NCBI RefSeq assembly: GCF_028737315.1
Contig: NZ_JAQZAO010000004.1
Coordinates: 248,001-312,000 of the forward strand
Direction: 5' to 3'
DNA length: 64,000 nt
Origin: Actinomycetospora lemnae
Lineage (GTDB): Bacteria > Actinomycetota > Actinomycetes > Mycobacteriales > Pseudonocardiaceae
Part shown: positions 3,230 to 6,775 of the stretch, in pieces
Layout: the number at the start of each line of letters is the position of its first letter
How positions within the stretch are numbered: the first letter of the stretch is position 1
Program-made: the position numbers and the translations under genes
The notes under the pieces: generated by a model
Told to the model about the DNA's origin: nothing
Database searches by the model: none
Seen by the model: only the letters and a program-made list of their open reading frames with translations

Positions 3230-4011
3230 GCCCGCACCGGGTCCTTCCCCGGCGTCCCCGCGAACGCCTGGCCGAGCACCATCCATTCGCGCGCGGCGTC
3301 GCCGGTGACCACCAGCGACGTGTCGTCGACGTGCCGCCGGCGCACGAGCACCAGGCAGAACTCCTCGGCGTCGCCGACGACCGCGTCCCCGTCGTCACGG
3401 CCCTCGTCCCACGTCCACACGTCGCCCGACGGGCCGGTGAGCTCGACGCGGACGGGCACCTCGGGGACGTCCATCCCCCGCACCCGGTAGCCCTGCGCGC
3501 GGGCGCGGACGGCGATGTCGGCCACGTGGCGCAGGCGGTCGGTCGGCGCGAGGCGCGCGCCGACGGCGTCGGCGATGTCGGTGCCGTGCGCCCAGGTCTC
3601 CATGATCCGGCTCGTGATCGCCGACCGCAGCGACATCGGCGGGCCGTACCAGGGCAGACGGGCCGTCGGGTCGCAGGCGCGCGCGGCCCGGTCGAAGGCC
3701 CGGGCCGCGTCCTGCCAGTAGGCCAGCGCGGCCGGGCCGACCTCGGGCACGTCGGAGAGCGTGCGCCCGACGAAGCCGTCGAGGTCGGTGATCGCGTCGC
3801 GCTCGGCGGTGAAGTCCTCGGGCGTCGAGATCGCCCGGGCGAACGCGCCGTCGAACCAGCCGAGGTGGGCGACCTGGTCGCGGACCGTCCACGGCTCGGC
3901 GCGCGTCGGCAGCGTCCAGGACGCGCGCGGGAGCGGGCGCACGATCGCCATCACCGCGGCGCGTTCGGCGTCGAGGTCGTCCAGCAACGACTCCACGGTC
4001 GGGGCGCTCAC
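3226..4011 (-). CDS. TIGR03084-type maleylpyruvate isomerase-fold protein
   Basis: 261-residue protein of the DinB/mycothiol-dependent maleylpyruvate isomerase-like superfamily, TIGR03084 type. The N-terminal four-helix bundle carries LTHL-like DQVAHLGWFDGAF (about residue 50) and METWAHGTDIADAVG (about residue 145), the two His-containing segments expected to bind a metal. A C-terminal SCP2-like region with GDVWTWDEG follows. GTG start at 4011 overlaps the TGA of the upstream acyl-CoA dehydrogenase gene; its own stop overlaps the carboxyltransferase start. From general knowledge, this family often sits with acyl-CoA carboxylase and acyl-CoA dehydrogenase genes in actinobacteria. Its chemical role there is unknown. 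Confidence 0.8.
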   Translation of the reverse strand: MSAPTVESLLDDLDAERAAVMAIVRPLPRASWTLPTRAEPWTVRDQVAHLGWFDGAFARAISTPEDFTAERDAITDLDGFVGRTLSDVPEVGPAALAYWQDAARAFDRAARACDPTARLPWYGPPMSLRSAITSRIMETWAHGTDIADAVGARLAPTDRLRHVADIAVRARAQGYRVRGMDVPEVPVRVELTGPSGDVWTWDEGRDDGDAVVGDAEEFCLVLVRRRHVDDTSLVVTGDAAREWMVLGQAFAGTPGKDPVRA

Positions 4012-5276
4012 CCGTCCAGCCCCAACCGCCCCGCCACGACCTCGTCCATGATCTCGGTCGCGCCGCCGCCGATCCCGAGGATCCGCGCGTCGCGGTAGTG
4101 GCGCTCGACCTCCACGCCGTGCATGTAGCCCATCCCTCCGTGCAGCTGGACGGCGCGGTCGACGACGGCGTCGCACGCCGCGACCGCGGTGTTCTTGGCC
4201 ATCGCCAGCTCGGTGACGACGTCGTGCCCCGCCTGCCAGCGGGCGAGGACGTCGCGCACGTAGGTGCGGGCGACGGTGGTCGTGCGCGCCATCTCGGCGA
4301 TCTGGTGCCGGACCACCTGGCGCTGCGCGAGCGGCGCCCCGAACGTCTGCCGGGTGCGCGCCCAGTCGATGGTCAGGTCGACGCAGCGCTGGGCGGTCGC
4401 GTAGGCCTGGACGGCCATCGACAGCCGCTCGGCCGCGAAGTTGACCATGATCTGGCGGAAGCCGGTGCCCTCGGCGCCGACGAGGTTCGCCGCCGGCACG
4501 CGCACACCGTCGAAGTGCAGCTCGGCGGTGTCGCTGCAGTGCCAGCCCATCTTGCGCAGCCGCGAGCGCGACACCCCGGGGCGGTCGGTCTCGATCACCA
4601 GCAGGGAGAGGCCGCGGTGCCCGGCGCCGCCGGTGCGCACGGCGGTGGTGACGACGTCCGCCCGGGTGCCCGAGGTGATGAACGTCTTGGCGCCGTCGAC
4701 GACGTACTCGTCCCCCTCGCGCCGGGCGCGCGTGGTGATCGCTGCGACGTCGGACCCGGCCCCGGGCTCGGTGATGCCGAGCGCGGCGATCATCCGCCCG
4801 GCCAGGGTCGGGGCCACGAAGCGTGCGATCTGGTCGGGGTCGCCGGCGGCGGCGATGTGCGGGACGCCGATGCCGTGGGTGAACAGGCCCGCGCAGACCC
4901 CGCTCGACCCGCCGGAGAGGATCAGCTGCTCGGCGACCAGGCAGGCGTCGAGGTGCTCGCCGACCCCGCCCGCGGCCTCGGGGAACCCCAGCTCGAGCAG
5001 GCCGAGCGCCCCGGCGCGCTCGTGCAGCGCGCGGGGCAGCGCGCCCTCGTCCTCCCAGCGCGCGAGGTGGGGCACGACCTCGCGGGTGGTGAAGTCGGCG
5101 ACGAGCTCGCGCAGCGCCCGGCGCTCCGGGGTCGCCCAGGCGTCGTGGGCGCTGACCGGTGTCGAGCGAAGGGCCCCTTCGCTCGATACAGCGGCCGAAG
5201 GGCGCCCGTCGCCAGAACCCGCTCCGCCCGGAGCCGAGCGAACGGACCCTTCGCTCGACACACCCGACGCCGTCAC
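4008..5276 (-). CDS. Acyl-CoA dehydrogenase with repeat-derived N-terminus
   Basis: FAD-dependent alpha,beta-dehydrogenation of an acyl-CoA. 422 residues. Family motifs: ALGITEPGAGSDVAAITTRA (about residue 165), FITSGTRADVV, FGAPLAQRQVVRHQIAEMA and QLHGGMGYMHG. The C-terminal motif reads IGGGATEIM, not the EGTSE of short-chain enzymes, so the catalytic base must lie elsewhere; this pattern is common in terpenoid-acyl and long-chain FadE types. The first 40 residues are abnormal: VSSEGSVRS (6-14) and VSSEGALRS (30-38) are read from two copies of a DNA palindrome. No in-frame ATG, GTG or TTG lies between the repeats and the conserved fold, so they must be translated. GTG at 5276 overlaps the ligase stop (GTGA); GTG at 5261 is the alternative. 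Confidence 0.9.
   Translation of the reverse strand: MTASGVSSEGSVRSAPGGAGSGDGRPSAAVSSEGALRSTPVSAHDAWATPERRALRELVADFTTREVVPHLARWEDEGALPRALHERAGALGLLELGFPEAAGGVGEHLDACLVAEQLILSGGSSGVCAGLFTHGIGVPHIAAAGDPDQIARFVAPTLAGRMIAALGITEPGAGSDVAAITTRARREGDEYVVDGAKTFITSGTRADVVTTAVRTGGAGHRGLSLLVIETDRPGVSRSRLRKMGWHCSDTAELHFDGVRVPAANLVGAEGTGFRQIMVNFAAERLSMAVQAYATAQRCVDLTIDWARTRQTFGAPLAQRQVVRHQIAEMARTTTVARTYVRDVLARWQAGHDVVTELAMAKNTAVAACDAVVDRAVQLHGGMGYMHGVEVERHYRDARILGIGGGATEIMDEVVAGRLGLDG
5162..5186. repeat. Coding palindromic repeat, copy 1
   Basis: Perfect inverted repeat: 12-bp arms TCGAGCGAAGGG and CCCTTCGCTCGA around one C, extendable by three more pairs including one G-T. It lies inside the acyl-CoA dehydrogenase gene and is read as SSEGALRS. 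A second, imperfect copy lies 48 bp away. Confidence 0.85.
5235..5257. repeat. Coding palindromic repeat, copy 2
   Basis: Arms CGAGCGAACGG and CCCTTCGCTCG around one A, with one internal mismatch. It is the same element as copy 1 at 5162 and is read as VSSEGSVRS near the acyl-CoA dehydrogenase start. Both copies are read in the same frame. Confidence 0.8.
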
Positions 5277-6775
5277 CGGGCGACCGCCTCGGCGTGCCCG
5301 GCGAAGCGCTCGCGCAGGACCCGCTTGAGGAGCTTGCCGGTGGCGTTGCGCGGCAGCTCGTCGACGACCTCGACGCGCCGGGGCGCCTTGAAGTGCGCGA
5401 TGCGCTCGCGCGTCCAGGCGATCACCTCGTCGCGGTCCAGCTCGCCGTCGGCGACGACGACCGCCAGCACCGTCTCGCCCCACGTCGCGTCCCCGATCCC
5501 GACGACGGCGACGTCGGCGATCGCGGGGTGGCGGTGGAGGACCTGCTCGACCTCGACCGGGTAGACGTTCTCCCCGCCCGTGATGATCATGTCCTTCTTG
5601 CGGTCGACCAGCGTGACGAAGCCCTCGGCGTCCCGGACGCCCAGGTCACCGGAGTGGAACCAGCCGTCGCGCAGCACCTCGGCGGTCGCCTCCGGGCGGT
5701 TCCAGTAGCCGGCGAACACCGTCGGTCCGCGCAGCACCAGCTCGCCGACCTCGCCCACCCCGACCTCGTCCCCGGTCTCGGACACCAGCCGCGCGTCCAC
5801 GTGCATGAACGGCCGGCCCACCGAGCCCGCGTGGGCGAGCACGTCGGCGGCGTCGAGGAAGAGCGCGGCGGGCGAGAGCTCGGTCATCCCGAAGCCCTCG
5901 GTGAACGTCCAGCCCCGGGCCGTGAAGTGCTCGATCACCGTGACCGGGCAGGGCGCGCCGCCGGAGATCGCCCACCGCAGCGACGGCTGGGGCGGCAGCG
6001 ACGGCAGCCGGGTCAGCGCCGCCCACATCGCGGGCACGAGGAACTGGGTCGTGACGCCCTCGTCGGCCATGAGCGCGGCGAACGCCGCCGGGTCGAACGA
6101 CGGCACGACGACGACCGTTCCGCCCGCGTAGAGCAGGGGGAGCGCGGAGAGTCCGAGCGCGCCGATGTGGAACAGCGGGGCCGCGGCGATCGTGACGTCG
6201 GTGCTCCCGATGCCCGGGCCGGCGGTGACCATGTTGACCGCGTTCCAGAGCATGTTGTCGTGCGTGAGCACCGCGCCCTTGGGGACGCCGGTGGTCCCCG
6301 AGGTGTACATGATCACGCAGGGGTCGTCGCCCGCGGCCGGGTAGGCGTCGACGGTGCCGTCACCGGGCTCGTCGGCCAGCTCCACGATCGCCGGCGCCGG
6401 CCCGTCGAGTGCGGCGATCGCGCCCTCGGCCAGGGCGGCGAACGTCGTCGAGCGCACGAGCACCGTCGCGCCGGAGTCGCCGAGCACGTGTGCGACCTCG
6501 GCGGGGGCGAGGCGGTGGTTGACCGGCACGGCCACCGCGCCGATCCGCGCCGCGCCGAAGAGCCACTCGAGGTAGGCGCCGGAGTTCTCGCCGAGCAGGG
6601 CGACGCGGTCGCCGACGTCGACGCCGCGGGCGGCGAGCGCCGCGGCGCGGGCGGAGACGCGGGCGTCGAGCGCGGCGTAGGTGTGGCGGGCGCCGGTGGC
6701 GACATCGACGAGCGCGGTGGCCCCGGGCCGGCGCAGCGCGCGCCGGGCGACCCAGTCGGCGATCCCACCGTCCAC
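5273..6775 (-). CDS. Acyl-CoA synthetase (AMP-binding, FadD type)
   Basis: Activates a carboxylic acid to its acyl-CoA through an acyl-adenylate. 500 residues. The P-loop-like motif MYTSGTTGVPKGAVLTH lies near residue 155, the adenylate motif TEGFGMTELSPA near 290, YWNRPEATAEV and HSGDLGVRDAEGF near 370-400, the hinge region DRKKDMIITGGENVYPVEVE, and the catalytic lysine in RNATGKLLKRVLRE near the C-terminus. Start GTG at 6775 has a GGAGG box eight bases upstream; the open frame runs far longer, but that part is antisense to the TetR gene. First gene of the leftward operon, so it probably feeds substrate to the dehydrogenase and carboxylase. Substrate unknown. Confidence 0.92.
   Translation of the reverse strand: MDGGIADWVARRALRRPGATALVDVATGARHTYAALDARVSARAAALAARGVDVGDRVALLGENSGAYLEWLFGAARIGAVAVPVNHRLAPAEVAHVLGDSGATVLVRSTTFAALAEGAIAALDGPAPAIVELADEPGDGTVDAYPAAGDDPCVIMYTSGTTGVPKGAVLTHDNMLWNAVNMVTAGPGIGSTDVTIAAAPLFHIGALGLSALPLLYAGGTVVVVPSFDPAAFAALMADEGVTTQFLVPAMWAALTRLPSLPPQPSLRWAISGGAPCPVTVIEHFTARGWTFTEGFGMTELSPAALFLDAADVLAHAGSVGRPFMHVDARLVSETGDEVGVGEVGELVLRGPTVFAGYWNRPEATAEVLRDGWFHSGDLGVRDAEGFVTLVDRKKDMIITGGENVYPVEVEQVLHRHPAIADVAVVGIGDATWGETVLAVVVADGELDRDEVIAWTRERIAHFKAPRRVEVVDELPRNATGKLLKRVLRERFAGHAEAVAR

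Follow-up and report, generated by a model that had tools for sequence, protein, structure and literature searches.

Organization of the fadD–ACAD junction

The window analysed here, a stretch of 64,000 nucleotides of the Actinomycetospora lemnae genome with a G+C content of 75%, carries on its minus strand an acyl-CoA dehydrogenase (ACAD) gene preceded by a gene for a fadD-type acyl-CoA ligase, with a composite palindromic element at the junction between the two (Table 1). The ACAD open reading frame, translated as VTASGVSSEGSVRSAPGGAGSGDGRPSAAVSSEGALRSTPVSAHDAWATPERR, begins with a GTG at 5276–5274 and is closed by a stop codon at 4008–4010; as the original prediction had noted, its start overlaps the stop of the preceding gene, the TGA of fadD at 5275–5273. 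The Pfam N-domain of ACAD begins at residue 49. Two in-frame GTG codons (5276 and 5261) are located directly ahead of the element, and the next in-frame ATG, GTG or TTG is found 87 nt past it, within the ACAD fold, so that in this genome there is indeed no alternative start of these three kinds between the palindromes and the fold. Among the matches listed, the closest ACAD comes from A. straminea, with 96% identity, and a plasmid search with the ACAD gene returned no match.

Table 1. Features of the fadD–ACAD junction, in window coordinates.
Feature	Position	Strand	Basis or remark
Acyl-CoA dehydrogenase (ACAD) gene, including the repeat-coded N-terminal tail	4008..5276	-	Pfam Acyl-CoA_dh_N/M/1
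fadD-type acyl-CoA ligase (AMP-binding), upstream of ACAD	5273..6762	-	PF00501 and PF13193, segments of our own HMM; the 5′ end (6762) is the gene-finder's limit only
GTGA, ACAD start overlapping fadD stop	5273..5276	-	Sequence; overlap shared by five clade-2 loci that lack the repeat
Composite palindromic element A-B-A, about 103 bp, ACAD residues 6–40	5159..5261	-	Arms 93% complementary; RNA predicted as one long hairpin
Palindrome A, 3′ copy relative to gene, reads VSSEGALRS	5162..5186	.	0 mismatches; one of 49 in genome
Palindrome B, GGCGCC-centred, between the A copies	5194..5213 (limits approximate)	.	Inverted repeat 5196–5211
Palindrome A, 5′ copy relative to gene, diverged, reads VSSEGSVRS	5234..5258	.	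2 mismatches

The 25-bp palindrome and the diverged second copy that had been described at the start of ACAD are both real: the 25-mer TCGAGCGAAGGGNCCCTTCGCTCGA is matched exactly by the 3′ copy, itself a perfect palindrome, and with two mismatches by the 5′ copy. Shuffling the window 100 times yielded 0.00 matches, which rules out a chance palindrome. The two copies are close neighbours, as claimed, with starts 72 bp apart, but the gap between them measures 47 bp rather than 48 bp. Between them lies the third palindrome, B, and the outer copies pair with each other through arms at 5159–5185 and 5235–5261 (93% complementary over 27 nt); therefore, the feature is one composite A-B-A element. 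GGCGCC-centred stretches resembling B are also present between A copies at other loci (e.g. L013). The RNA of 5158–5262 is predicted to fold into a hairpin of −77.2 kcal/mol (z −6.78), the base of which would be situated about 11 nt past the overlapping stop and start codons. An intrinsic terminator, that is, a GC-rich hairpin followed by a T run, was rejected, with none found at 5000–5500 on either strand, and so was a known Rfam family, the single match (5394–5455) being below threshold.

The original prediction of a tail of about 40 residues, with both palindromes inside the coding sequence, was borne out. AlphaFold2, run on 30 aligned sequences, few of them spanning the tail, gave ACAD residues 1–40 a pLDDT below 50 and placed the first helix at residues 43–46, and the tail is accordingly modelled as disordered ahead of a confidently predicted fold. 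The repeat would add about 35 to 40 residues, which are probably floppy.

A dispersed palindrome family restricted to the genus

A count of the palindrome across the 6.06-Mb A. lemnae genome (30 contigs), suggested together with the original prediction, recovered 34 copies at no more than two mismatches and 49 at no more than three, with no match to the reversed pattern. Like REPs, family A thus consists of many dispersed copies of a short consensus palindrome. It is present in 17 of the 18 Actinomycetospora genomes (0–87 copies each at no more than two mismatches) and in five of 279 other genomes of the Pseudonocardiaceae, with six matches in total there and one for the reversed control. Two further families were delineated, namely C (CAGCGAGGGTNACCCTCGCTG), found in 10 of the 18 genomes, all from clade 1, and E (CGAGGGGAACCCTCRTGC), found in eight of the 18, all from clade 2.

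The arrangement of A units was analysed in 105 clusters from six genomes, 28 of them from A. lemnae. Five relatives supplied the other 77, which were the best-matching ones listed, so that well-preserved copies are over-represented. Neighbouring units are most commonly spaced by 30 bp (71 cases), followed by 75 bp (23), 65 bp (9) and 76 bp (7), and the 72-bp spacing found at ACAD occurs twice. In 12 sequences of the 53-nt A-A unit from A. lemnae, both-side changes were found at six of the 24 pairs of a long stem versus none of the 20 pairs of a model with two separate hairpins, a pattern pointing to a fold of the unit into one long stem. The spacers of the 71 A-A pairs, read on either strand, contain TAGAT in 48 cases, GTAG in 27, CTAG in 17 and CGTC in one. 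Separately, three loci (L173, L183 and L191; A. straminea, G015) carry near-identical tandem duplicates of C/D type with spacings of 75, 86 and 76 bp, respectively, which suggests local duplication of whole C/D-type units at these loci.

Genomic placement of the copies

Gene context was assigned not from annotation but with a home-made HMM for which the window served as training data. Among the 94 clusters that were not scored as internal to genes, 37 are located between convergent and 53 between co-directional genes, with the remaining four in divergent intergenic regions; the copies are hence mainly extragenic and convergent or co-directional, as is typical of REPs. The first base of a stop codon lies 10–24 nt ahead of the palindrome core at 72 of the 127 adjoining gene ends. 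Consistent with this placement, 39 of the 47 usable co-directional clusters are nearer to the upstream stop, seven are nearer to the downstream gene and one is tied (sign test, p 1.8e-6; six of the 53 were left out). In A. straminea, for which a set of 32 clusters of C/D and A types was kept outside the 105, the C/D-type copies show a weaker proximity to stops (14 of 40 gene ends at 10–24 nt); one straminea cluster is inside a gene (L174) and another (L177) looks coding on both sides.

Ten of the 105 clusters are in frame inside genes, in nine ORFs; in addition, seven are located at C-termini and five at N-termini. The count of ten derives from 11 ‘internal’ scores, from which L022 was dropped as lying upstream of its gene, with L230 counted twice for one gene; L005, where the element at a start/stop overlap is in another frame, was left out because of its uncertain start. 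In G006, genes at three loci (L216, 1593–1615; L221, 1577–1599; L229, 1553–1575) run into an A palindrome and terminate just past its core, their products ending in SERRAPSLE or SERRAPSVG directly before the stop.

The ACAD site across Actinomycetospora

The comparison of orthologs proposed in the original prediction separated the two clades of the genus: ACAD of all 10 clade-1 genomes has an N-terminal tail of repeat type that stays open in its reading frame and is degenerate or partial in four of them, and the clade-2 ACAD loci that were read have short tails without the repeat. The unaligned stretch at this site measures 43–135 nt in eight of the 10 clade-1 genomes and 9–25 nt in seven of the eight clade-2 genomes; in genomes without an alignment row at the site, the junction was read directly. 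Five clade-2 loci without the repeat (L068, L069, L070, L071 and L073) share the overlap of the ACAD start with the fadD stop; this overlap is therefore probably older than the repeat.

Judged by eye, the tail is of type A in A. lemnae and A. succinea, with a single A unit in MAG54, of degenerate A type in A. callitridis, A. chibensis and one other MAG, and of type C in A. straminea, A. lutea, NBRC 106375 and A. cinnamomea. Sister species thus carry different families at the same site: the tails differ in type within the pairs A. lemnae/A. straminea (support 99) and A. succinea/A. lutea (support 97), in a tree built from the ACAD, RecO and Lnt proteins in which several other branches are weak. 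The genomes with C-type tails contain 32, 29, 19 and 32 copies of C, and those with A-type tails 4, 8, 1, 2, 15 and 20, so that the tail type tracks the genome-wide number of C copies as a trend with overlap. A concerted switch of type at all sites was rejected, given that the RecO elements of A. straminea and A. lutea are A-like despite the C-type ACAD tails of these species. In A. straminea (L062, 2842–3000), the tail site shows an additional in-frame expansion ahead of the C-type element, where a 12-bp unit, GGCGTGGCGAGC, which encodes GVAS, is present in five tandem copies.

The assertion that both palindromes must be translated holds for A. lemnae, A. succinea, A. callitridis and A. chibensis, but does not extend to all relatives. 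Only in these four of the 10 clade-1 genomes must the complete element be read by the ribosome, because the other six have an alternative GTG, inside the element in four C-type species and after it in two MAGs. In A. chibensis (L080, 2760–3001), the gene order is rearranged, since ACAD does not directly follow fadD, and the repeat is preceded by an ATG with a Shine-Dalgarno-like GAGGAGG in front of it; judging from the sequence, the start in this species would lie before the repeat, placed independently of the fadD overlap.

In-frame copies in other genes

ACAD is not the only gene to incorporate such repeats. N-terminal tails of the same kind are present in Lnt of A. lemnae, A. succinea, A. 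lutea and one MAG, and in degenerate form in A. straminea; in clade 2, the Lnt junction holds an element in three genomes (G006, G010 and G013), and other genomes are without one. A histidine kinase (L171) and the corresponding genes of two more clade-2 genomes, recognized by flank similarity (L231 and L247), likewise carry a tail, which follows a start codon overlapping the stop of the preceding gene. Repeat-coded C-termini of RecO were found in six of the 10 clade-1 genomes, with degenerate versions in two and none in two, and in clade-2 genomes G006 and G009. The CobT junction is a short sequence (e.g. EPDPADPL) in nine clade-1 genomes and contains a short A unit in the tenth, G014; in clade 2, this point is occupied by an A element in six genomes and by an E element in two. 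In A. termitidis, six of the 34 clusters listed are in frame in genes, namely, those for BluB-CobT, an FAD-binding protein, CopA, HldE, CydDC and UreF. We also noticed a single in-frame TGA in the matched part of BluB-CobT of the G014 MAG (L296).

E-type palindromes are located at the Lnt N-terminus of G008 (L284) and the RecO C-terminus of G009 (L262), and because of these, the two sites also seem to host more than one family. It is conceivable, if somewhat doubtful, that the ACAD and Lnt N-termini, the RecO C-terminus and the CobT loop represent ‘guest sites’ in metabolic and housekeeping genes, at which one of the families A, C and E gives way in frame to another when lineages diverge. If so, this would imply that insertion or conversion proceeds independently of RAYT, prefers certain sites and is linked to positions near stops; perhaps the hairpin or the tail would also have a role open to selection.

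Mobility, origin and possible function of the element

The REP transposase domain Y1_Tnp (PF01797), to which the search for a partner transposase was limited, was detected in none of the 18 genomes of the genus, some of which are incomplete; the same search was positive in five of 14 control genomes. A RAYT-driven REP was rejected accordingly. The elements possess inverted repeats, and the element-free sites are too diverged to display a target duplication. No fresh insertion was seen among the genus loci compared.

We consider it very probable that the palindromes at ACAD represent a single copy of a REP/MITE-like repeat, genus-specific and apparently non-autonomous, which became coding through the GTGA overlap and is tolerated as an N-terminal tail. 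Copies would arrive by transposition or gene conversion, and the palindromic element would have settled in its usual spot, 10–24 nt past a stop codon, in this case behind fadD; the ACAD copy is 18 nt from the fadD stop, a typical distance for A copies. The GTGA overlap would then place the element inside the ACAD reading frame, and the copy would be coding only because the ACAD start overlaps the fadD stop. The ACAD frame reads SEG..LRS and, as inspection of copies such as L020 suggests, would be left open by typical A copies. Ribosomes would start at GTG 5276 or GTG 5261 and turn the element into an unstructured extension of the N-terminus, tolerated by the enzyme. A ribosome that re-initiates at GTGA would have to unwind the hairpin; the latter may reduce or pace the synthesis of ACAD relative to that of fadD, and re-initiation or the first steps of elongation on ACAD may be slowed by it. 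Most likely, the element is a tolerated passenger.

The original prediction envisaged a different origin, in which the palindromes were duplicated within the coupled fadD–ACAD junction and kept as a tail, and the presence of two similar copies 72 bp apart at such a junction is compatible with this scenario. However, 49 copies are scattered over the A. lemnae genome, spacings of 30, 65 and 72–76 bp recur across the six genomes, a different palindrome, B, lies between the A copies, and sister species have another family at the site. In view of the dispersed copies and of the other family in the sisters, we rejected local expansion, which has to be regarded as extremely improbable. Scarcely any credence is due to the proposal that the repeat is untranslated, with the fold edge bearing the true start, a non-standard codon such as CTG, and the frame being open by chance. 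The N-terminus of ACAD is a prediction from the sequence, and the home-made gene-finder HMM scored 5160–5278 as non-coding in composition; yet, the distances from start to fold in the 10 clade-1 genomes take six values (69, 96, 99, 111, 141 and 159 nt), all multiples of three and all stop-free, and comparable in-frame copies lie within CobT, UreF and interdomain linkers, all of which are necessarily translated.

Rather unlikely, although deserving more weight, is a regulatory hairpin acting as a translation-sensitive attenuator or polarity element, which a coupled ribosome would open and which would otherwise block downstream expression. The predicted folding energy, the both-side changes in the long stem and the stop-proximal placement of A copies all agree with such a role, and in E. 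coli, REPs within 15 nt of stop codons have been linked to ribosome stalling (as cited in PMC12306157). Nevertheless, no terminator-like site is present at 5000–5500, clade 2 retains the start/stop overlap without having the repeat, four genomes have a degenerate or partial tail element, and the covariation in the long stem could also arise from snap-back copying or gene conversion. We favour the interpretation of the element as a dispersed repeat that is tolerated as part of the protein.

Relationship to known palindromic repeats

The Actinomycetospora repeats provide a case from high-G+C Actinobacteria of palindromic repeats turning into protein segments. The alternatives at the same place of a gene (none, A, C or E) across the 18 genomes amount to natural replicates, useful for following how hairpin repeats become protein tails, how stop-proximal hairpins might tune operon output and how REP-like elements move with no REP transposase found. 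Automatic annotation may trim or mis-start genes with such tails. The literature searched, which is thin on subscription journals, contained no title on Actinomycetospora repeats and no description of sister species that differ in the family occupying one coding site.

Among known systems, the mycobacterial MIRU are actinobacterial short repeats likewise tied to NTGA start/stop overlaps, in which the repeat has its own ORF coupled to the host gene (PMC12548453); by contrast, the ACAD element is read through, uses no in-frame stop of its own and extends the host protein. The E. coli REPs and BIMEs (cf. PMC12306157) resemble the Actinomycetospora repeats in being stop-proximal palindromes in inverted pairs, but differ in length and core, and no RAYT was found in the genus. 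Parallels are also offered by GTAG/CGTC REPs, small palindromes, often arranged as inverted dimers, which reside mostly between convergent or co-directional genes, with some located within ORFs and some supplying the stop codon (PMC3733652), although Y1_Tnp is found in none of the 18 Actinomycetospora genomes and GTAG occurs in only 27 of the 71 pair spacers. The Rickettsia palindromic elements (RPE) are short palindromic repeats located in frame within unrelated protein genes, where they yield a recurring peptide that is tolerated by the host protein (PMC10969869). The Actinomycetospora repeats, likewise present in frame inside protein genes, resemble RPE by description and belong to another phylum with high G+C; furthermore, most of their copies are intergenic, many just past stop codons, and different families occupy the same coding site across species. 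Collectively, these comparisons suggest that the Actinomycetospora family, which departs from RAYT-associated REPs and from the own-ORF organization of MIRU, works in a manner analogous to RPE and to REP-tagged genes.
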